A stretch of DNA of 52,077 nucleotides from Candidatus Anaeroferrophillus wilburensis (lineage in GTDB: Bacteria; Desulfobacterota; Anaeroferrophillalia; Anaeroferrophillales; Anaeroferrophillaceae): NCBI GenBank assembly GCA_016934315.1, contig JAFGSY010000022.1, positions 1 through 52,077 of the forward strand, written 5' to 3'. The notes under the pieces are model-generated. The model was not told the DNA's origin, ran no database searches, and saw only the letters and a list, made by a program, of their open reading frames with translations. Position numbers and translations under genes: made by a program. This document shows, one piece after another, positions 16,506 to 27,599 of the stretch (positions are counted from its first letter, which is position 1; each line of letters opens with the position of its first letter).

Positions 16506-17756
16506 CTACAACATTTCAATGGCACAGGCCATTGATACACCGCCACCGCCACAGAGCGTGGCCATGCCCAAGGATTTCCCCCGGTTTTTCATCGCGTAGA
16601 TGAGCGACACTATAATCCTTGCACCAGTTGCCCCAATGGGATGACCCAGTCCAATCCCTGATCCATTCACATTGGTTATCTCACGGTTAAGCCCCAGCTC
16701 ACGTTCACAACCTATATACTGGGCCGCAAAAGCTTCATTAATCTCAATCAGTTCAAAATCAGCGACTTTGAGTTTACTGGAGAAAAGCATACTTTGAACT
16801 GCCGGCACTGGTGACAGCCCCATAATGGAAGGATGGCATCCTCCGCTTCCCACAGCCCGAATAACAGCTATCGGTCTGAGCCCCAAATCACGTGCTCGCG
16901 ACGCAGACATGATGAGCAAACCGGCCGCCCCATCATTCAGACCACTTGAATTTCCGGCTGTTACCTTCCCGCTGCCCGGCACAAAAGCGGGCGGCAGACT
17001 TTGAAGATCGGCCATAGTCATGGCAGGTCTGAAGTGTTCATCTTGCTCAAATACTACCGCCTGTTTTTTCCGTTGAGGAACTTCCACCGGGACAATTTCT
17101 TCCTTAAAACGTCCTTTTTTGGTGGCATCTTCAACGTTATTATGACTTCTCAAAGCCACCTCATCCATTTCTTCACGAGAAATACCCAGATACTGAGCCA
17201 CAAATTCTGCTGTCAACCCCATAATATAAGGTTTCCCTTTAAATATCGATAGAGGGGACTGACTGCTGTCCACCGGTCCATCTTCAGGATGCGGAATCAC
17301 GTGAGACCCACAGTAGAGAGAACGGATCAAAGCATCGACCATCACTTGATCCTGAAGACGGCAGCCCCAGCGAGCACCGGTAATATGATACGCTACCCCT
17401 GACATGTGTTCAACACCACCCGCCAGAATCACATTCGCCATACCAGCTTTGATCATGGCCATACTGGATATGACCGCTTCCATTCCTGATATACAGACCC
17501 GATTAATGGTAACCGCGGGAACAGGATCGGGAATCCCAGCCAAGAGTGCCGCAACCCGAGCCACATTAAGGGTTTCAGCCGGTTCAATGCAGCAGCCGTA
17601 TCGAACATCATCAATAATGCCCGGATCAATGCCTGCCCGTTCCACCGCTTCTTTCATGGTGACACTGGCCAAAGCGGCTGCATTCAGATTTTTCAGAGTA
17701 CCGCCGAAGGAACCGATGGCTGTCCGGCAGGCTGAAACAATAACAACATCTTCCAT
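16506..17756 (-). CDS. thiolase (acetyl-CoA acyltransferase family)
   Basis: A 416-residue thiolase expected to split a 3-oxoacyl-CoA with CoA, or condense acyl-CoAs in reverse. Active-site residues present: the nucleophile Cys in NRVCISGMEAV near residue 88, the His in GSGIGLGHPIGATGAR and the second Cys in LCGGGGVSMA at the C-terminus. The length is slightly above the usual 390-400. It is placed between the TRAP solute-binding protein gene and the hydrolases, and likely carries out the last carbon-carbon cleavage of the pathway, releasing acetyl-CoA. Confidence 0.9.
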   Translation of the reverse strand: MEDVVIVSACRTAIGSFGGTLKNLNAAALASVTMKEAVERAGIDPGIIDDVRYGCCIEPAETLNVARVAALLAGIPDPVPAVTINRVCISGMEAVISSMAMIKAGMANVILAGGVEHMSGVAYHITGARWGCRLQDQVMVDALIRSLYCGSHVIPHPEDGPVDSSQSPLSIFKGKPYIMGLTAEFVAQYLGISREEMDEVALRSHNNVEDATKKGRFKEEIVPVEVPQRKKQAVVFEQDEHFRPAMTMADLQSLPPAFVPGSGKVTAGNSSGLNDGAAGLLIMSASRARDLGLRPIAVIRAVGSGGCHPSIMGLSPVPAVQSMLFSSKLKVADFELIEINEAFAAQYIGCERELGLNREITNVNGSGIGLGHPIGATGARIIVSLIYAMKNRGKSLGMATLCGGGGVSMACAIEML

Positions 17757-18030: not shown

Positions 18031-19089
18031 TTATATCCGGCCGGTCATTTTCATAAGGTTTTTAAGTATATCACCAGCCTTGGCACAATACTTCGGATCC
18101 TTCTTGGAGTACTCATCCAAAACTTCAATGGCAAACTTGCGGAGCTGGGCTACCGTATCACCGTCTAAGGTGGAAATCTCACCCATTTTTTCGTCATTCC
18201 AGACTTTGATATCCAAAATATCGTTGTAGCCGGACCATGTAAGAAAATCAACGCCCGCGGATCTGGCACATTCCTCAACAACAGCTTGCAGATGGGGTGG
18301 CAAGGCAGCCCATTTCTTTTGGTTCATAATAATTTCGCCATTATTGATTTCAGCCAAATTAGGTTTGATAATATATTTACATACTTCCTGCAGCTTCATG
18401 TCCCAACCAGTGGAAATAGTTCCCCAATGCGCCCCTTCACAAACACCGGTCTGGAGAGCCTGATACAACTCGGCGCCAGGGAAAAATACCGGTGTCGCTC
18501 CGGCTTTCTGGAAAACCTGGGCGGCAATACCGGTACTTCTCACTTTATATCCTTTGAAATCGGCAAGTGTCTTGAGTGGTTTCTTGGAATAAAGTCCAAC
18601 ACCAGCCATGGGCAACGGAGCTACAAGGCGGACACCATGGTCAACATAGGCCTGTCTGAAAACTTCGATGGCCCCCATATCATAAAAATAGGCATACATC
18701 TCGTCAACGGTTTGCCAAGTAAACAGCTGGCCGTTGACATATGCAGCGACCGGAACTTTTCCCATCCAGTACGTGGGCCAAATAAGAGAAATTTCAAATA
18801 AACCACGCCCCAGAGCTTCGAAAACATCCTTCGTAGGCACGATAGAGCCCGGCGGCAGCGGCGTAATATCAAGCTCACCGTCGCTGGCAGCCCTGACCCG
18901 ATCACAGAATCTAACGTAGACATCCTTGTAGTACCCCACCCCAGTCGGCCAGTGGGTTTGCATGCGCCACTTTATTGTCGCCTTCTTTGTTGCGGCACGG
19001 GCCACTTTAGGAATAACGCCTGCCGCCCCTACTGCCGCCGCAGTTGCACCTGCCTTAAGTACATTTCGCCTAGAAATCTTCTCTTTCAT
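18031..19089 (-). CDS. dctP: TRAP transporter solute-binding protein, DctP family
   Basis: Periplasmic receptor that captures an organic acid for the DctQM permease encoded a few genes away. From ATG 19089 the protein is 352 residues, with an N-terminal Tat-like signal (SRRNVLKAGATAAAVG, ending near KVARA) and the DctP fold; the conserved region RSTGIAAQVFQKAGATPVFFPGAELYQALQTG is typical, its Arg usually contacting the substrate carboxylate. AGGAGG 7 nt before ATG 19089 decides this start; the frame extends to 19233 but those residues are implausible. A small hairpin (TTCGGTTG-AGC-CAACCGAA, 19125-19143) lies in the leader. Receptor and permease genes are separated by three other genes, unlike the usual dctPQM order. 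Confidence 0.92.
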   Translation of the reverse strand: MKEKISRRNVLKAGATAAAVGAAGVIPKVARAATKKATIKWRMQTHWPTGVGYYKDVYVRFCDRVRAASDGELDITPLPPGSIVPTKDVFEALGRGLFEISLIWPTYWMGKVPVAAYVNGQLFTWQTVDEMYAYFYDMGAIEVFRQAYVDHGVRLVAPLPMAGVGLYSKKPLKTLADFKGYKVRSTGIAAQVFQKAGATPVFFPGAELYQALQTGVCEGAHWGTISTGWDMKLQEVCKYIIKPNLAEINNGEIIMNQKKWAALPPHLQAVVEECARSAGVDFLTWSGYNDILDIKVWNDEKMGEISTLDGDTVAQLRKFAIEVLDEYSKKDPKYCAKAGDILKNLMKMTGRI

Positions 19090-19247
19090 ACACTCCTCCT
19101 CCGCAGTTGTTAAGGTTTCCTCCCTTCGGTTGAGCCAACCGAATCCGTTTGGCAAAACATCTTGGGAACAGCAAACCATCCCTTTTCTGATGGAAAATAA
19201 TGAGAAAAGTACAGCAGTAACGTTGCCCTGCAACCATTGATCTGCAG

Positions 19248-20912
19248 TTAATTATTTCTGAGCTCGCGCCGCAGTATTTTGCCGGTATTGGTTTTCGGCA
19301 GCTCGTCGAGAATTTCAATAATGCGCGGATACTTATAGGCTGCCAACCTTTCCTTGCAAAAACTGATCAGTTCTGCAGAAGTGATTTTCCCCGAATAATC
19401 TTCACTCAAAGAAACAAAAGCTTTGACGGTCTCGCCACGATAGCTGTCAGGAATCCCCACAACCGCAGCCTCCCTGACCCCGGGATGGAGATAAAGAACA
19501 TCCTCCACGTCCCTTGGCCAGACTTTGAATCCGGAAACATTTATCAGATCTTTTTTCCGGTCAACGATGTAGCACCATCCCTGCTCATCAATCTTTGCGA
19601 TATCGCCGGTAAATAAGCGTCCCCCTCGAATCGCTCTTGAAGTTTCAGCCTGATTTTCCCAATATCCCTTGATAATATTTGGTCCCCGCAAAACCAGTTC
19701 ACCTTCCTGCCCCGGCGCCATGATGATATCCTGATTCTCTACATCAACGATCCATGCCTCAATGCCAGGAATAATAAGGCCCACGGAGAGTGCTCCGGAA
19801 TTCTCGTCGACAGGTCCGTTGTGACCAAGAGGAGCTATGGTAGCCGGCGAAGAGCTTTCTGTCAGTCCATACACGTTATAGATGGACAGCCCCATGACTT
19901 CCTGAAATTTTTCTACGGTACCTGGGGAAACTGGTGCCCCGCCACTATAGGCTTTTTTAAAGCGAGAAATATCAAATGATTTGATCGCGGGATGGTTGAG
20001 AAGAGCAATATATACCGTTATGGAGGCGACCGTAAATGTCACCCGATGCTTCTCGATAAGCCGTAAAACATCATGAGCATCAAAACGGTTGAAAAGGACT
20101 ACGGGAATACCCAAGTGAAAAGCGATTGCCTGATGAGCCACAATGCCAGTGATATGGAACAACGGTGCAATACCGAGCACGACGTCCGAACGGTCCAGAC
20201 GTGCAGTTGCTTCGTAAACCTAACAATTATAATCAATATTTGCATGGGAAACCATAGCTCCCTTGGGGGGGCCGGTAGTCCCCGACGTATAAACGAGATA
20301 GGCCAAATCGTCAGGGTTAATGCTAATCTCGTCAAACGTCTGATCAGTGAATGCTCCAATCAGTGCCAGAAGATCAAAGGTTTCGGCCGGTGTTTCTTTA
20401 GACGTATTTTTAAGCTGTTCCGGCACCTGGTCACCGGCAACCAGAAAATCGAGCGGCGAGGTAGTAATCACGGTTCGCCCGCCGGCAGCTGCACGAATGG
20501 TTTTTTCGAACAGCATGTCCTCACAGATAATCAATTGCGCGCCACTATCCGTCAGCAGATGCTTCAGATCCTTCGATGTACACATGGGATTGACCGGCAC
20601 CACAATCCCTCCCCGCATCCAGACCGCCAGCGAGGCAATGATAGTCTGTGGAATATTTTGTAGGACAAACAGAACTCGATCACCCTTGCATATGCCCTTG
20701 TCCGCAAGGGCAGCAGCCAAGGAAAGTGCCATTTTCTCCACTTGAGCAAAGCTATACTCCGCGTCAAAATAATAGATGCAGGAACTTTCCGGATACATTG
20801 AAGCGGAACGTCTAAATTTATCAAGAACACTTTCACTTTTTTCCGGGAAAATCGGGGCAAACCATTCTGGGTAAATATCGACCCAAGGTTTATCGTCATA
20901 ATAACGAGGCAT
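19248..20912 (-). pseudogene. AMP-forming acyl-CoA ligase interrupted by one in-frame TAG
   Basis: Reading from ATG 20912, a full-length ligase of 555 codons is open except for a single TAG at 20220-20222 (codon 231). The frame is the same before and after, so this is a nonsense codon and not a frameshift. Upstream of it is the AMP-binding P-loop YTSGTTGPPKGAM; downstream are LGIAPLFHITG, YGLTESSSP, YIVDRKKDLINVSGFKVWP and the C-terminal catalytic Lys in PKTNTGKILRREL. Both halves look well conserved. The residue before the stop region (H-A-N-I-D-Y-N-C-x) is often Gln in the family, and CAG to TAG is one transition. The intact enzyme would make acyl-CoA plus AMP from an imported acid. Confidence 0.85.
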
Positions 20913-20933: not shown

Positions 20934-21698
20934 TCAGCAAATCGTCCATCCACCATCAATTGCAATGCTTTGACCAGTAATAAAATCCGATGCCTTGCTG
21001 GCCAAAAAAATAACGATTCCCTCGATTTCTTCCAGTTGCCCCCAGCGTCCCATGGGAGTCCGCGCCTGAATGAAATCAAATCTCTCTTTGTCATCCCTGA
21101 TCTGTTTGACCATTTCCGTTTCAAAATATGTCGGGGCAATGGCATTAACCCGCACCCCCAGTTTGGCCCATTCCAAAGCCATAATCTTCGTCATTTGCTC
21201 GACGCCTCCCTTGGCTGATGCATAGGCAAGCTGGTTGGGGATGCCAATCCTACCCAAAATCGAACTTATATTGATAACCTTGCCGTACCCGCGTTCAATC
21301 ATCTGTGGAACCACGGCCTGAGCTACCAGATAATACCCTTTTAGATTGATATTGATAATTCGATCCCACTCTTCTTCAGGATAATCGATGATTGAAGTTC
21401 TAAAATTAGTTCCAGCATTGTTGACCAGGATGTCAATCTTGCCGAAATGATCCATGATGGCGCCAACAGCTTTGTTGACCGCATCCTTTTGCGTGACTTC
21501 GAGAACAAATCCAGCAGCATGGCTACCCATTGCCCGCAAGCGGCCAACCACACGATCAATATCAGCCGCGTTTCGGCCGCAGACAGCCACATCTGCCCCA
21601 GCTTTGGCCAGCGCTACAGCACCTGCTTCACCAAGGCCTTTGGAACTGCCGGTAACCATAGCTACCTGGCCCTTAAGATCAAATATCTCTATGGTCAT
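20934..21698 (-). CDS. short-chain dehydrogenase/reductase (FabG-like)
   Basis: A 254-residue classical SDR that should oxidise a hydroxyacyl-CoA or reduce a ketone with NAD(P). All landmarks are intact: cofactor loop TGSSKGLGEAG, NNAGTNF, catalytic Ser in INISSILG and YASAK with Tyr and Lys. It lies 21 nt upstream of the acyl-CoA ligase on the same strand. In the proposed pathway it would generate the 3-oxoacyl-CoA substrate for the thiolase. Substrate specificity cannot be read. Contrast with the degenerate SDR domain of the regulator at 25846-27219. Confidence 0.88.
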   Translation of the reverse strand: MTIEIFDLKGQVAMVTGSSKGLGEAGAVALAKAGADVAVCGRNAADIDRVVGRLRAMGSHAAGFVLEVTQKDAVNKAVGAIMDHFGKIDILVNNAGTNFRTSIIDYPEEEWDRIININLKGYYLVAQAVVPQMIERGYGKVINISSILGRIGIPNQLAYASAKGGVEQMTKIMALEWAKLGVRVNAIAPTYFETEMVKQIRDDKERFDFIQARTPMGRWGQLEEIEGIVIFLASKASDFITGQSIAIDGGWTIC

Positions 21699-21824: not shown

Positions 21825-22382
21825 CTACGCTTCCTCATCTAAAAAATGAGGCTTCCTGCCCTGGGCTGTTTCTTCCGCCACAATAATTTCCGCTGCCCAT
21901 CTGGCAGCCTTACCCACCACAGCCGGACATTTATCTTCATGCCCACCTGCCTGTATAAAAGCATCCCAATCCGCTGGATCATTAAGTTGATACGTCCGCC
22001 CCATAACCTGTTTATGGATTTCTCCGCAGGTTGAGGTGCCGTATTCCTCAACAAAACATTCATGAAGAGCATTAGCCAGACGATAGCCGATAAACCGAAT
22101 CCCCTCAGGATCATCTATATTATCCAAATCACGACCATAGAGATAGCTCAAGAGCATCACCCCGCCAGTAAGCCCCCCGCAGGAACCGGCAACTGACAAG
22201 CCTACTCCCCCACCAAGCCCCGTAGCAGCTTTGAACACATCAAGACTTCGCAAATCAGGAAAGGCTTCCATCAACGCACCCAGAACACACTGAGCACAGC
22301 CATGGTATTTTTTTTCAAAGTTGGCAGCGCTGGCTTCCACTGAATCCAACAAATCTTTTTCTGATTTATAAGCTAGGTTCAT
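21825..22382 (-). CDS. C_GCAxxG_C_C family redox-associated protein
   Basis: A 185-residue protein of the C-GCAxxG-C-C family, named for its spaced cysteines: GCAQCVLGALMEAF near residue 28, SCGGLTGG near residue 67 and further cysteines near 115 and 145. Members are widespread in anaerobes, often beside oxidoreductases or transporters, and are thought to bind a metal or cluster, but no biochemical function is established. The ATG is preceded by AAAGGAGGGGG. It lies between the TRAP permease and the SDR gene. Membership of the family is clear; role unknown. Confidence 0.82.
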   Translation of the reverse strand: MNLAYKSEKDLLDSVEASAANFEKKYHGCAQCVLGALMEAFPDLRSLDVFKAATGLGGGVGLSVAGSCGGLTGGVMLLSYLYGRDLDNIDDPEGIRFIGYRLANALHECFVEEYGTSTCGEIHKQVMGRTYQLNDPADWDAFIQAGGHEDKCPAVVGKAARWAAEIIVAEETAQGRKPHFLDEEA

Positions 22383-22460: not shown

Positions 22461-23762
22461 CTACATGGTGCCTGGCAACCACATGATAATTGATGGAAAA
22501 ACCATCATCATAATCATTGCCACAATCATAATCGCAATAAATGGTATCACCCCCCTGAAAATCACCATCATGTCTGTTCCCGGACTGAGAGATTTGAGAT
22601 AAAAAAGATTGTACCCGAATGGCGGAGTAACATACCCAATACACAGAGCAATATTAAAAACGACCCCATACCAAACAGGATCATAGCCCAAACTCTTAAC
22701 CACCGGATAAAAAATGGGTAGACAGAGGAGAATAATTCCCATCGGGTCAAGGAACATCCCAAGGATAAGGACTGCGGCCTGGAGCAAAAAAATCATCACC
22801 CAGGGACTGACATTAACACCCATGAGCATACTATTAACAAAGTAGATGCCACCACCGCCACTGTAAATTGCCACAAAACCGGAAGCACCAAACATAATCC
22901 AGAGTACCATGCCGGTAATACTCGCTGTTTGCCAGGCAGCCTCCTTAATAAATCTCCAGTTCAATTCACCGCGAACAAAGATACAGATCAACACGGCCAA
23001 AGATCCCACCGATGATGCCTCTGTCGGCGTTGCAACACCTAAAAAGAGTGAACCCAAGATGGAGATGATGATCAATAGGGGCAAGAAGACCGACTTCAGC
23101 GCCCGAAGTTTTTCTTTGAGAGTAACCGGCTCTTCCAATGCTGGGCATAAGTCGGGCTGGAGCCAAGCTCTGATTGCAATATAAAGCATGAATGCCGCGA
23201 CAATGAGCGTCCCGGCAACCAAACCACCGGCAAACAGCTTGCCGATTGACTGGCCGGTCATCATCCCGATAACAATCAGAGTAATACTTGGCGGAATAAG
23301 AATACCCATGGTCCCAGCCGAACCGATCGAGCCAAAGATGATCGATTCACTATAGTTTCTCCGACGCATGGACGGAATGGCGACCAGGCCGGTGGTGACT
23401 GTGGAAGCGGAACAGTTTCCTGTCATGGCAGACAGGACAGCTGCAAAGCCGCAGCTGCCAATTGCCAGCCCGCCTCTCAACTTTCCGAACCAAATATAAA
23501 AAGCATCAAACATATCTTCCGCTATCTTCGACTTGGATAATGCCACCCCAATGAACACAAACATCGGAACTGCTGCCAGCAGCAACATCCACATGTAATT
23601 AAACACGCCGGTAACAATCGGCATGAGTCCGTCGGGACCCCACATAACCAAGGCTGAGATTACCCCGATCGCCCCCATGGCAAAGGCCAGGGACACACCA
23701 AACATTATACAGAGAATCAAGGATCCGAACATCCCAATGGTGAGCAGCAGTTCTTGACTCAT
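22461..23762 (-). CDS. dctM: TRAP transporter large permease, DctM family
   Basis: The 433-residue large membrane subunit of a TRAP uptake system, with about 12 hydrophobic segments and the ion-coupled transport path. Characteristic stretches are GNCSASTVTTGLVAIPSM, GSAGTMGILIPPSITLIVIG and the C-terminal GYVTPPFGYNLF. Its start overlaps the dctQ stop by 4 nt (ATGA). With dctP and dctQ in the same gene run it completes a Na+-driven importer of an organic acid. Confidence 0.95.
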   Translation of the reverse strand: MSQELLLTIGMFGSLILCIMFGVSLAFAMGAIGVISALVMWGPDGLMPIVTGVFNYMWMLLLAAVPMFVFIGVALSKSKIAEDMFDAFYIWFGKLRGGLAIGSCGFAAVLSAMTGNCSASTVTTGLVAIPSMRRRNYSESIIFGSIGSAGTMGILIPPSITLIVIGMMTGQSIGKLFAGGLVAGTLIVAAFMLYIAIRAWLQPDLCPALEEPVTLKEKLRALKSVFLPLLIIISILGSLFLGVATPTEASSVGSLAVLICIFVRGELNWRFIKEAAWQTASITGMVLWIMFGASGFVAIYSGGGGIYFVNSMLMGVNVSPWVMIFLLQAAVLILGMFLDPMGIILLCLPIFYPVVKSLGYDPVWYGVVFNIALCIGYVTPPFGYNLFYLKSLSPGTDMMVIFRGVIPFIAIMIVAMIMMMVFPSIIMWLPGTM

Positions 23763-24265
23763 GCTTTAAACTTAACCCCCTTGACAAAAACATAAACTGA
23801 CAAAAGCAACTGGTTGAGCCCCTGCAGAGTGATCAAGACTGCACCAACCACCAGCAAAAACTTCACCGGATAGACCGGGTGAGCCAGCACCATCTCGTCA
23901 GCTTCACGAATAGCCCAAGAACTTGCAAAAAAGGCAATCCCCTCTTTGATCAACACCGAGGACCAGAGCAGTAGCAGCAAATAATTGATTATGTCCAGAA
24001 ACGCCCGTCCGCGCACTGAAAAACGCCTGTAGAGAACATCGACTCTCACATGACCATTCTGGAGCAACGTATAGGCTCCAATCATAATAAAATAACTGCC
24101 AAACAGGCGCTGAGAATAACCATGGGCCCATACCGTTGGCGAATTAAAAAAATACCGGGCAACAACTTCGAACACCAAAATGAACATCCCAAAATAAACC
24201 AGGAACGAAATTATTTTCCCCGACCATTCACTAAAGCTGTCGGTAACCATTAAAAATTTTCTCAA
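23759..24265 (-). CDS. dctQ: TRAP transporter small permease, DctQ family
   Basis: Predicted 168-residue inner-membrane protein with four transmembrane segments, the small permease subunit that forms the DctQM complex. The conserved WAHGYSQRLFGSYFIMIGAYTLLQNGHVRVDVLY region is present around residues 43-78 (typical for the family in pattern: aromatic-rich helix, then GHVRVD). It overlaps dctM and follows the AbfD-like gene after 54 nt. Confidence 0.93.
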   Translation of the reverse strand: MRKFLMVTDSFSEWSGKIISFLVYFGMFILVFEVVARYFFNSPTVWAHGYSQRLFGSYFIMIGAYTLLQNGHVRVDVLYRRFSVRGRAFLDIINYLLLLLWSSVLIKEGIAFFASSWAIREADEMVLAHPVYPVKFLLVVGAVLITLQGLNQLLLSVYVFVKGVKFKA

Positions 24266-24319: not shown

Positions 24320-25810
24320 TCACTCTTCACTGCCTTCCAAATGCGGTTTAACGTTACGCATTTTCGAATCATCCAATTCTTCGTCAATGCCAGCCAGATA
24401 GCGAGCCAATTTTTTTCTATCATCAAAATCATATCCAAGGTTGAGCGCTATGGTCTCCATAATGGGGGAACCTCCTCCATGGACACCCGCAATTTTGTAC
24501 CAGGACGCCATGCCGGAAGCACCGATATTCTCAACAAGCTGCCAAATCTTCAGAGAGTCTTCTGAAGACAAGTTCGGATTCCTGACAATGAACCGCTTGA
24601 GTGCGGCCGCGCAATCTCCTTGCTCGAAATCTTCATCGAATGGCATGGTCACCGCAATGCCTCCGGCAATTTCAGTCAAGATATTGAATTCATGATAAAT
24701 CATTTCGCCAGTCAGCCGCCGGCCTACGTTCGCATAGATCTCATTGGGGAAAAATACGCCGCTAGAGGTTTTTTCTCCATAAACCGCCGCGGCAACTCCC
24801 GCGGCATAGGCCAATTCAGCCGCGCCGGCAAATTCAGAAAGCTTTTCCTTGACGTGGCTGGCCTTTAAAATATTATTAGCCTCAGCCGCTAAAGCCGTAA
24901 CTCCACAGAGGATATCGGATACTCCTGGTTTACAGCCACTATAACTATGCCGGTGCGAATCAGCAAAGAGCAATGCCATTCTCCGGCCAAATTGCCATTC
25001 TCCACACATGAAAACCCGTTCTTTCGGCACAAAAACCTTATCAAAAAAAACGATACTGTCAGAAACTCCATATTGACAAAAAGGAGCCGCATCAGGTTTA
25101 TCATTATTTCTCAGCCAGACCGGACGGGTGATCAGACTCAAACCTTCCGTGTCACCCGGGACCGCGAAAGCTACCGCATAATCCTGATCTGATTCCGTAA
25201 GCGCCCGGGTCGGCAGTGCAATTATCTCATCGGCATAGGGGGCCTGGGTAATGGACATTTTAAAACCACTTACCACAATGCCATCATCGCGCCGCTCGAC
25301 AATGTGTAGATATGCATCAGGGTCTTCCTGTTCGCTTGGACGCTTCATCCGATCGCCCTTGCTGTCTGTCTGAGCGCAACAACCAACCAAATCTTTCTCG
25401 TGATACATTTTCAGATAATCCAGAAATCGTTGATGGTAGTTACTGCCATTAGCGGCATCCATCTCTTTTGTACAAACCGCCAAGGCGTTAATGGCATCAT
25501 GGCCCATACAGCGCTGGATACACCCCCCTACCCTGCGAGCGGCAAGACGGATAAGTTTCTGCTTCTTTATCAAGTCACTAGGACTCTGGGGCAAATGGGC
25601 CCACCGGTTGATCTCTCCCCCGGTTACCGGCGAAACAGCGGTAGCAAGGCCTTTCCATTGCGGATCCTGAGCCAAATCGAAGGTTACATCAAGGACATTG
25701 ATCCCCGGCTTGAGCCGCGGATCATCACGGCCAACAGGCTCACCGCCGATGAAGACATTATGCCTCATTGCAAAAAGATCTTTATGATACTGCTCCTTTG
25801 TTCTCAACAT
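24320..25810 (-). CDS. 4-hydroxybutyryl-CoA dehydratase-like enzyme (AbfD / 4-HPA hydroxylase family)
   Basis: A 496-residue flavoprotein of the 4-hydroxyphenylacetate 3-hydroxylase superfamily. In clostridial 4-hydroxybutyryl-CoA dehydratase/vinylacetyl-CoA isomerase a [4Fe-4S] cluster is held by C99, C103, H292 and C299. All four are found here with the same spacing: C97 and C101 in GCIQRC, H286 and C293 in HRHSYSGC. This argues for the radical dehydratase or isomerase branch and against the oxygen-dependent hydroxylase branch, which lacks them, and fits an anaerobe. It follows the TetR-SDR regulator by 35 nt and precedes dctQ. It could remove water from an unactivated hydroxyacyl-CoA or shift a double bond; the natural substrate is unknown. 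Confidence 0.85.
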   Translation of the reverse strand: MLRTKEQYHKDLFAMRHNVFIGGEPVGRDDPRLKPGINVLDVTFDLAQDPQWKGLATAVSPVTGGEINRWAHLPQSPSDLIKKQKLIRLAARRVGGCIQRCMGHDAINALAVCTKEMDAANGSNYHQRFLDYLKMYHEKDLVGCCAQTDSKGDRMKRPSEQEDPDAYLHIVERRDDGIVVSGFKMSITQAPYADEIIALPTRALTESDQDYAVAFAVPGDTEGLSLITRPVWLRNNDKPDAAPFCQYGVSDSIVFFDKVFVPKERVFMCGEWQFGRRMALLFADSHRHSYSGCKPGVSDILCGVTALAAEANNILKASHVKEKLSEFAGAAELAYAAGVAAAVYGEKTSSGVFFPNEIYANVGRRLTGEMIYHEFNILTEIAGGIAVTMPFDEDFEQGDCAAALKRFIVRNPNLSSEDSLKIWQLVENIGASGMASWYKIAGVHGGGSPIMETIALNLGYDFDDRKKLARYLAGIDEELDDSKMRNVKPHLEGSEE

Positions 25811-25845: not shown

Positions 25846-27219
25846 CTACGTTAGACCACCGGTCACGTTAAAAACCTGTCCGGTAAGATATTTTGACCCA
25901 TCACCAATTAAAAAAAAGACCGCGGCAATGACATCGAACAACTCGCCTAAGCGACCTGAAGGAATCTCTTCTGCAACCTCGCTTTTAAAAGCTTTTTCGA
26001 TCTTCAGCGGCCTGGACGCCCGAATATAACCAGGCACAATGCAATTGACATTTACCCCGGCGGCGGCCATATCCTTCGACATAACCTGACTCAAGGCTAT
26101 CGCACCTGCTTTGGCCGTCTCAAAACGGACGGCATCAGCGTAACGGTCCCAAGCCCATGGCGCCAGATAGACAATCCTCCCTGCTCGACGAGCGCTCATT
26201 CTCTCCCTCAAATAGTTTGCTAAGTCATGGGCATGACGCATATTATCATCAAGAGCGCTCATCGCCTGCCCTCCAACTCCGGCTGCAGACTCACTCTCCA
26301 TACCCATACCGAGATCATGGATATAAATATCGATCGGACCATATTGGTCCTCGATATCCTGCATCTTGGCCGGCGTAAGCTGGACTTGCCCATCCATAAC
26401 ATACACAGGCGCACAACATGATTGCCCGCTACCATTTCCAGGCTTACCATCTCCCCCGTTCCAGTTATGTCCATGAACAATTAAACGCCCGCCATTTGCC
26501 AGAAAAGCACTGCATATGGCCTGCCCCAAAACAGTGCCGCCGTTAAGAACAAGGACTGTTTTACCCTGAAGATCATCAAAAGTTTGAGGCAATGCGGCTA
26601 AAGCTTGCTTATCACGACTCAACCCATTGAAGATGATTTCAAGAATCATGCGTTCAGCATCAAGCTGATTCACATGATTTCTCAGGTCCCATCGTTTGAT
26701 TACCCAGCTGTCAATCATCGATTTAATCAAGTTGGCCGTCAAACGCAAATCACAATCATTAAGTCTTCCAGCGGCAACACATTCCGCGATAACCTTCTCG
26801 AACTTTCCCAAATGCTGCCGCTCCTTCTGAAGCAACTTCCTGAGAAAATCACCTTTAAGAATATGGCTCTCCTGATAAATCAGCAACAGGGCATCTGCCC
26901 ATTGATCCATCAAGTTGAACTCAGCGCGCACCATTCTACGAAGCTTATCAATCGGATCCTGGATATTTTCGATGCTCCGATTGATAATATCCATTGCCGA
27001 CCCGGCCAAGAAATCATGGATCAGGAAAAAAATATCCTCCTTGCTTCCCACATAGTCATAGATGTTCCCATAACTAAGATTGGCTTCCGCAGCCAACTCT
27101 TTGAGAGTTGTCTTATGAAAACCGTTTTTGGCAAACAATTTAATCGCCGCCAGCACAATCTGGCGTCGACGCTTCTCAACCAAACCCTTGTTCTTAACTG
27201 TCGTTGGAATATCAACCAC
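25846..27219 (-). CDS. TetR-family regulator fused to a degenerate SDR domain
   Basis: A 457-residue fusion. Residues about 20-66 are a TetR HTH (AAIKLFAKNGFHKTTLKELA, then SYGNIYDYVGSKEDIFF) followed by a helical ligand domain to about 205. Residues about 217-457 align with SDR enzymes but have lost active-site residues: the cofactor loop reads NGGTVLGQA, NNAG is HDLG, the catalytic Ser region is VYLAPWAW, and YxxxK is FETAK (F366, K370). The SDR half therefore probably senses a dinucleotide or acyl-CoA and does no chemistry. GTG 27219 is chosen because GGAG lies 7 nt upstream; a TTG at 27246 has none. It is first in the minus-strand run and probably controls it and itself. Confidence 0.8.
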   Translation of the reverse strand: MVDIPTTVKNKGLVEKRRRQIVLAAIKLFAKNGFHKTTLKELAAEANLSYGNIYDYVGSKEDIFFLIHDFLAGSAMDIINRSIENIQDPIDKLRRMVRAEFNLMDQWADALLLIYQESHILKGDFLRKLLQKERQHLGKFEKVIAECVAAGRLNDCDLRLTANLIKSMIDSWVIKRWDLRNHVNQLDAERMILEIIFNGLSRDKQALAALPQTFDDLQGKTVLVLNGGTVLGQAICSAFLANGGRLIVHGHNWNGGDGKPGNGSGQSCCAPVYVMDGQVQLTPAKMQDIEDQYGPIDIYIHDLGMGMESESAAGVGGQAMSALDDNMRHAHDLANYLRERMSARRAGRIVYLAPWAWDRYADAVRFETAKAGAIALSQVMSKDMAAAGVNVNCIVPGYIRASRPLKIEKAFKSEVAEEIPSGRLGELFDVIAAVFFLIGDGSKYLTGQVFNVTGGLT

Positions 27220-27599
27220 CGCGATTCTCCACAACGCTGCATTCAATAATTATGACTGACTAATCAGATTGTGACTGACTTGCCGAAAAAATCGATATCA
27301 CAAACACACAGAGCTGTCAAACGAATAATTACAGTGTTTTATTTTTTTACAAGGGATAAGTTAATTACATCATGCTTGATGTGTTCCCTGTCGCAACATA
27401 AAACTACTACTGTACCGCTCTGATAATGAGCTATCTGAATCAGTTGCAGTTTCGTTTTTCGTCCGCGTGATAGGGAAACGGGCAGGAACATAATCCGGAA
27501 GAAACCTGGGGCGGGATCGTCTTTTATTTGATTCTCAGGGGTGCGAAGTGGTTAGAATTTCACGGCGTTTCGTGCAATTCTCGACCGACATCACCCACC
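27220..27599 (-). promoter_or_regulatory. promoter region of the catabolic run, with candidate TetR operator
   Basis: 380 nt with no gene. Just upstream of the regulator start, TGACTGACT occurs twice (27253-27261 and 27272-27280), exactly 19 nt apart, and the first is part of the dyad CTGA-CTAA-TCAG (27257-27268). These are natural candidates for autoregulatory binding sites. The distal part is AT-rich near 27340-27380. It also separates the AT-rich block from the HAD gene, which ends at 27600. Confidence 0.45.

Follow-up and report, generated by a model that had tools for sequence, protein, structure and literature searches.

Why should a TetR-type regulator carry a whole SDR-like domain, and what could this domain still do once its active site has been altered? 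This question is raised by a gene on the minus strand of the window, the whole stretch of 52,077 nucleotides analysed here, for which an earlier note had proposed an enzyme-turned-sensor, with the SDR half reading the level of NAD(P)H or acyl-CoA and passing it to the DNA-binding half. The fusion itself, as that note had described it, is real in the sequence: a single ORF on the minus strand (25846-27246, with the GTG at 27219 as its likely start) runs through the junction of the TetR and SDR halves with 0 stops and 0 frameshifts, and Pfam places TetR_N (residues 21-65, 45.9 bits for a cut-off of 24), TetR_C_24 (88-171) and adh_short_C2 (232-457) on the protein, all above their gathering scores. 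In NCBIfam, FabG and other SDR models came top, the best 25 listed all falling far below their cut-offs. The source genome contains one TetR-SDR fusion, and the remaining matches there span one half only. The gene and its domains are the following:

25846-27219, minus strand: TetR-pseudo-SDR fusion gene, 457 aa, GTG start at 27219, frame open to a TTG at 27246
27025-27159, minus strand: TetR_N helix-turn-helix, residues 21-65 (Pfam, E 4.9e-12)
26707-26958, minus strand: TetR_C_24 ligand-binding/dimerisation region, residues 88-171, FadR/KstR2-like (Pfam and profile comparison)
25849-26574, minus strand: FabG-like pseudo-SDR domain, residues 216-457 (Pfam, profile, AlphaFold2/Foldseek)

We looked for the same fusion elsewhere, as the earlier note had suggested, and it recurs as 22 distinct full-length proteins in 18 genomes after removal of repeats, all aligning end to end; this set excludes a truncated copy (L065), a TetR-only gene (L063) and repeat fetches of the same loci. 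Because so many distinct proteins and genomes carry it, the fusion cannot be a sequencing error joining two genes, and that origin is ruled out. The named genomes that bear it are of Desulfobacterota type, and a contig scan of genomes gave seven full-length relatives with 45-64% identity (L038-L044, including Desulfosarcina widdelii and Desulfatitalea). Profile searches of genome sets that overlap one another found full fusions in 5 of 395 genomes of a phylum sample (source genome included; a sixth match was TetR alone), in 4 of 18 genomes of the order of G328 (where a contig end truncates a further one), in 6 of 194 of the order of G312 and in 7 of 30 of the family of G531. Among the 99 nearest relatives of the source genome, itself included, the only full-length fusion is the window's own copy. 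The distribution is patchy, some genomes having two or three copies. Two genomes have a tandem pair, Desulfosarcina widdelii (L040, 8208-11368) and a relative (L090, 8068-11334), and the upstream copies of these pairs (L055, L076) are without the operator described below.

Results showed no free-standing pseudo-SDR at E 1e-50 in the genomes of the phylum sample, the orders of G328 and G312 and the family of G531, the sole SDR-only match (L065) being cut by the contig start. A TetR protein of the fusion's family does occur on its own, without the SDR domain (L063; L093 1491-2129, adjoining TRAP-transporter-like genes). Neither the fusion nor SDR relatives were found in the scans of viral contigs. 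Two records with at least 80% query cover that were candidates for plasmid-borne fusions turned out to be separate, neighbouring TetR and FabG genes on Bacteroides-group plasmids, and in a contig of a viral collection (L355, 451-1937) a TetR gene likewise lies directly upstream of a FabG-like gene. Such unfused neighbours are a possible starting arrangement for the fusion. The literature searched (titles and the starts of abstracts, with subscription papers mostly outside) described no TetR-SDR fusion.

Is the SDR half still an enzyme? According to the earlier note the glycine loop, NNAG, Ser and Tyr were all substituted, and in the window protein all four are indeed changed: LNGGTVLG stands for TGxxxGIG, HDLG for NNAG, Pro354 for Ser (a position assigned by HMMER alignment to solved FabG chains) and Phe366 for Tyr.

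26524-26544, minus strand: NGGTVLG, residues 226-232, replacing the SDR glycine loop (alignment to SDRs)
26308-26319, minus strand: HDLG, residues 301-304, replacing NNAG (alignment to SDRs)
26146-26160, minus strand: PWAWD, residues 354-358, with Pro354 at the catalytic Ser position (PWxWD in 22 of 22 fusions)
26122-26124, minus strand: Phe366 at the catalytic Tyr position (alignment of 22 fusions)

These changes are largely common to the family. The catalytic Ser position is Pro in 22 of 22 fusions and Ser in none, the NNAG position reads HDxG in 20 (QDLG and YDIG in one each), and the glycine loop is of the VNGGTVLG type, its first Gly being Asn in 21 of 22 (Gly in one) and the NxGT type being found in 21 of 22. 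The tetrad Asn (Asn326 in the window) is kept in 20 of 22. The claim that the Lys and the C-terminal motifs remain holds for the window protein, where Lys370 is kept, and fails family-wide for the Lys, which is present in only 16 of 22 fusions. Homologues retaining the full SDR active site, named in the earlier note as evidence that would go against it, were sought and none is found among the 22. The Tyr position is Phe in 13 fusions and Tyr in 9, and these nine count against a simple statement that the domain is always dead by its Tyr; residual or changed chemistry could still occur in them.

We then compared the fusions with 20 active SDRs. At fourteen positions, at least 20 of 22 fusions share a residue that is rare in the active SDRs (N226, G228, T229, Y299, H301, D302, G306, P354, W355, W357, C393, R403, P404 and E426), and 13 of these positions fall inside the SDR motif segments, which make up 76 of 242 residues (Fisher p = 1.4e-6); these segments are the glycine loop, NNAG, Asn, Ser-Tyr-Lys, PG and lid, with bounds taken from standard motifs and chosen after the alignment had been seen. 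When only conserved positions are considered, 13 of 21 inside the segments are fusion-specific compared with 1 of 18 outside (p = 2.5e-4). Purifying selection acts on the SDR half, with dN/dS of 0.09, 0.12, 0.15, 0.18 and 0.37 in five of six chosen pairs, the sixth (L059-L060) being saturated in dS. As judged from these alignments, the old active site is replaced by another fixed set of residues, rather than decaying. Within the main group, identity is about 50% in the SDR half and 70-80% in the TetR half; some members, of which L070 and L078 are the most drifted, may be losing function.

A quick tree of 74 SDR rows, supported by SH-aLRT only, groups all 22 pseudo-SDRs in a single clade (SH-aLRT 100) on a long stem (2.09), apart from the active SDRs of the operon, and a derivation of the pseudo-SDR from the operon's own SDR is therefore not supported. 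Separate trees of the TetR and SDR halves have well-supported pairs and small groups in common. A single origin of the fusion with co-inheritance of its halves is likely on these trees, though not proved, because the deep forks are weak in both.

To what extent the fold survives was addressed with AlphaFold2. A first model was poor (pLDDT 63.8); the second, built on an alignment of 9 fusions and 20 SDRs with the TetR-only rows and the SDR L322 left out, reached a mean pLDDT of 80.0 and a pTM of 0.55. In its SDR half most blocks have pLDDT 87-97, with lower values in 251-280, 301-320 and 401-420. Foldseek returned FabG chains first (E 1.4e-11, 23% identity), and FabG chains also lead the profile search. 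The model thus predicts a Rossmann-type SDR fold, a recovery that is partly built in by the active SDRs of the model alignment, and the arrangement of the domains in it is uncertain. As to the cofactor, two of the three loop glycines are replaced in the fusions, and strand 2 ends in a residue that varies (D in 10, C in 5, N in 3, others in 4 of the 22). For these reasons NAD(P)H appears weakened as an input of the SDR half and less likely; an acyl-CoA input is plausible for this FabG-derived half.

The best solved relatives of the TetR half in the profile search are 3dcf, 3vpr, 1vi0/3whb (FadR), 5gp9 and 4w97 (KstR2), and it matches the FadR and KstR2 chains over nearly their full length with profile E values of 1.3e-18 to 3.4e-16. 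With FadR and KstR2 among these nearest relatives, an acyl-CoA input to the TetR half is plausible. Immediately upstream of the fusion gene lies a putative operator, a palindrome of the type YTGAYYRRTCARTCRG:

27252-27267, minus strand: 16-bp palindromic putative operator CTGATTAGTCAGTCAT, matching the family consensus perfectly as no other site of the source genome does
27271-27286, minus strand: weak half-site scoring -0.2 in the window, a second site placed exactly 19 bp upstream of the main one

In the 2.7-Mb source genome, the site at 27252-27267 alone matches the consensus YYGAYYRRTCARTCRK perfectly. At one mismatch 20 further rows appear, and these mean little because a reversed control pattern gave 12 matches. 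Scored with the symmetrised 16-base motif, the same site reaches 16.0 and is the top site of the window; of 2000 Markov-shuffled upstream regions, 3 attain that score. The predicted operator is conserved: it scores at least 14.3 upstream of 19 of the 22 fusions, a count partly built in over the training rows, since the motif was seeded by eye from two fusion sites (near-duplicates, second tandem copies, L063 and the window itself were left out of the training). It was not found upstream of the other three (L055, L062, L076). In 14 of 22 fusions a second site, exactly 19 bp from the main one, has a score of 8 or more. The promoter scan upstream of the fusion gene gave no scored promoter on the minus strand; TTGACA at 27315-27320 and TATCGA at 27292-27297 were read by eye only.

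The gene heads a catabolic run, as the earlier note had stated, the next gene on the same strand starting 35 bases on:

24320-25810, minus strand: 4-hydroxybutyryl-CoA dehydratase/vinylacetyl-CoA isomerase-like gene (HpaB fold), first after the fusion (Pfam and profile)
23759-24265, minus strand: TRAP transporter small subunit, DctQ-like (named by eye)
22461-23762, minus strand: TRAP transporter large subunit, DctM-like (named by eye)
21825-22382, minus strand: C_GCAxxG_C_C family protein (Pfam, NCBIfam)
20934-21698, minus strand: ordinary SDR with TGxxxGxG, NNAG, Ser and YxxxK intact (Pfam and motifs)
19248-20912, minus strand: AMP-forming acyl-CoA ligase with an in-frame TAG at 20220-20222 (named by eye)
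18031-19233, minus strand: TRAP substrate-binding protein, DctP-like (named by eye)
16506-17756, minus strand: thiolase (Pfam, NCBIfam)

The names of the transporter and ligase genes rest on reading and clustering, the family scan covering the others. The best solved relative of the HpaB-like protein is 1u8v, a 4-hydroxybutyryl-CoA dehydratase (E 3.5e-104), with Cys-x3-Cys and His-x6-Cys aligned, which we take to be iron-sulphur cluster ligands. The surroundings are conserved as well: within 10 kb downstream, an HpaB/4-hydroxybutyryl-CoA-dehydratase-like gene is found in 18 of 21 fusions, an AMP ligase in 16 and an ordinary SDR in 13, and TRAP or ABC-type transporter genes lie near many of them (L038, with 69 bp of downstream sequence, and L092, a repeat of L040, were left out of this count). 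The C_GCAxxG_C_C protein, of redox type, has a relative in one other compared locus (L087). At the ligase's TAG codon several relatives have Leu, His or Phe, and it may reflect a real inactivation, suppression or an assembly error.

Taken together, the sequences lead us to favour, with somewhat more than even confidence, a TetR-type, autoregulated repressor controlling a CoA-ester catabolic operon, in which the pseudo-SDR would be a second ligand-binding input. The helix-turn-helix would bind the palindrome upstream of its own gene and so repress its own operon, and the TetR half would let go of the DNA on binding an acyl-CoA of the pathway, like FadR and KstR2. With less certainty, the FabG-derived half, without catalysis, may bind a small molecule in a rebuilt pocket and thereby tune or gate repression; a CoA ester or a keto/hydroxy acid of the pathway is a more likely ligand than NAD(P)H. 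Of the readings, the enzyme-turned-sensor has the best support, as the former active site shows conserved residues of its own and not the marks of decay, while ligand sensing as such is a prediction. A more specific form, which we put forward tentatively and at less than even odds, is that a dead FabG-like domain became, once, a dedicated second sensor whose pocket was rebuilt from Asn226, Thr229, His301, Asp302, Pro-Trp-x-Trp-Asp and Arg403. The repressor would then integrate two signals of the pathway, with the TetR pocket taking an acyl-CoA and the pseudo-SDR pocket a different metabolite.

Could the pseudo-SDR instead be a docking domain, forming mixed oligomers with the operon's SDR or another partner and so reporting enzyme load to the repressor? 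SDRs are commonly dimers and tetramers, and the ordinary SDR gene downstream of 13 of 21 fusions would supply a partner. Solved relatives in the profile search include BbsC and BbsD (7pcs), and a title in the reference list of PMC10818641 speaks of inactive pseudoenzyme subunits in the BbsCD heterotetramer. However, six fusions (L042, L043, L080, L088, L089 and L091) have no ordinary SDR within 10 kb downstream, in at least 8.6 kb of sequence each, and the new conserved residues lie within the pocket segments and are not spread across the oligomer helices, which makes docking unlikely. Quite unlikely, too, is a purely structural extension giving extra dimerisation or stability with no ligand binding: in its favour, the C-terminal motifs that support the fold are retained and sequence change is faster in the SDR half than in the TetR half, but a pure scaffold needs none of the 13 class-specific residues conserved in the old cofactor and substrate segments. 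The strong conservation of the altered site (Pro-Trp-x-Trp-Asp, Arg403), with Lys in 16 and Asn326 in 20 of 22, might also be taken for new or residual catalysis in a bifunctional enzyme-repressor; we regard this as very unlikely, given that Ser is absent from 22 of 22, Tyr from 13 and Lys from 6 (with Arg in 3, Leu in 2 and Gln in 1), and that the cofactor loop is changed. An artefact, or a decaying gene heading for loss, has next to no probability, since the 22 fusions are intact in their 18 genomes and dN/dS stays below 0.4 in the pairs computed, and nothing was found in its favour for the fusion itself, the in-frame TAG belonging to the ligase of the same operon.

The preferred reading, a repressor with a second input, gives the locus a wider meaning. 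Replacement residues shared by 22 copies suggest that a retired enzyme has been kept as a sensor for the pathway under its control; on a TetR regulator of several bacterial families, and with new site residues that are fixed, this would be a clear example from nature of how an enzyme turns into a sensor. The fusion offers specific residues and an operator as test targets, and its study would help to find what substrate feeds the recurrent 4-hydroxybutyryl-CoA-dehydratase-like pathway of sulphate-reducer-type bacteria.

How does this protein compare with known systems? In most TetR regulators a single small, all-helical domain does the sensing. KstR2 represses genes of acyl-CoA catabolism until acyl-CoA releases it. 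According to an excerpt of PMC6449355, Bacillus FadR is likewise a repressor of genes for acyl-CoA catabolism, and acyl-CoA releases it. The TetR half matches these FadR-type regulators by profile (Bacillus FadR 3whb/1vi0, 5gp9; KstR2 4w97; Thermus 3vpr), but they are single-domain proteins of about 190-230 aa in the matched chains, whereas the fusion adds a 240-residue SDR domain. With the classical SDR FabG, a 3-oxoacyl-ACP reductase, the SDR half has the fold and the C-terminal motifs in common; it differs in that Ser, often Tyr, NNAG and the glycine loop are replaced, the full active site being found in 0 of 22. BbsC, an inactive SDR subunit of BbsCD in anaerobic toluene degradation as far as a title in the reference list of PMC10818641 tells, resembles it as a dead SDR kept in an anaerobic CoA-ester pathway (chain 7pcs_A). 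By that title and the two 7pcs chains, however, BbsC is a separate subunit paired with an active SDR, while here the dead SDR is joined to a DNA-binding protein, in 22 of 22 cases. A last parallel is the fungal nitrogen regulator NmrA, an SDR-related protein in gene regulation, which in an excerpt of PMC5122588 has a canonical Rossmann motif, binds NAD(P), may sense the redox state and acts by binding the transcription factor AreA. In the fusion, unlike NmrA as described there, the regulator and the SDR are one polypeptide, and the glycine loop is altered.
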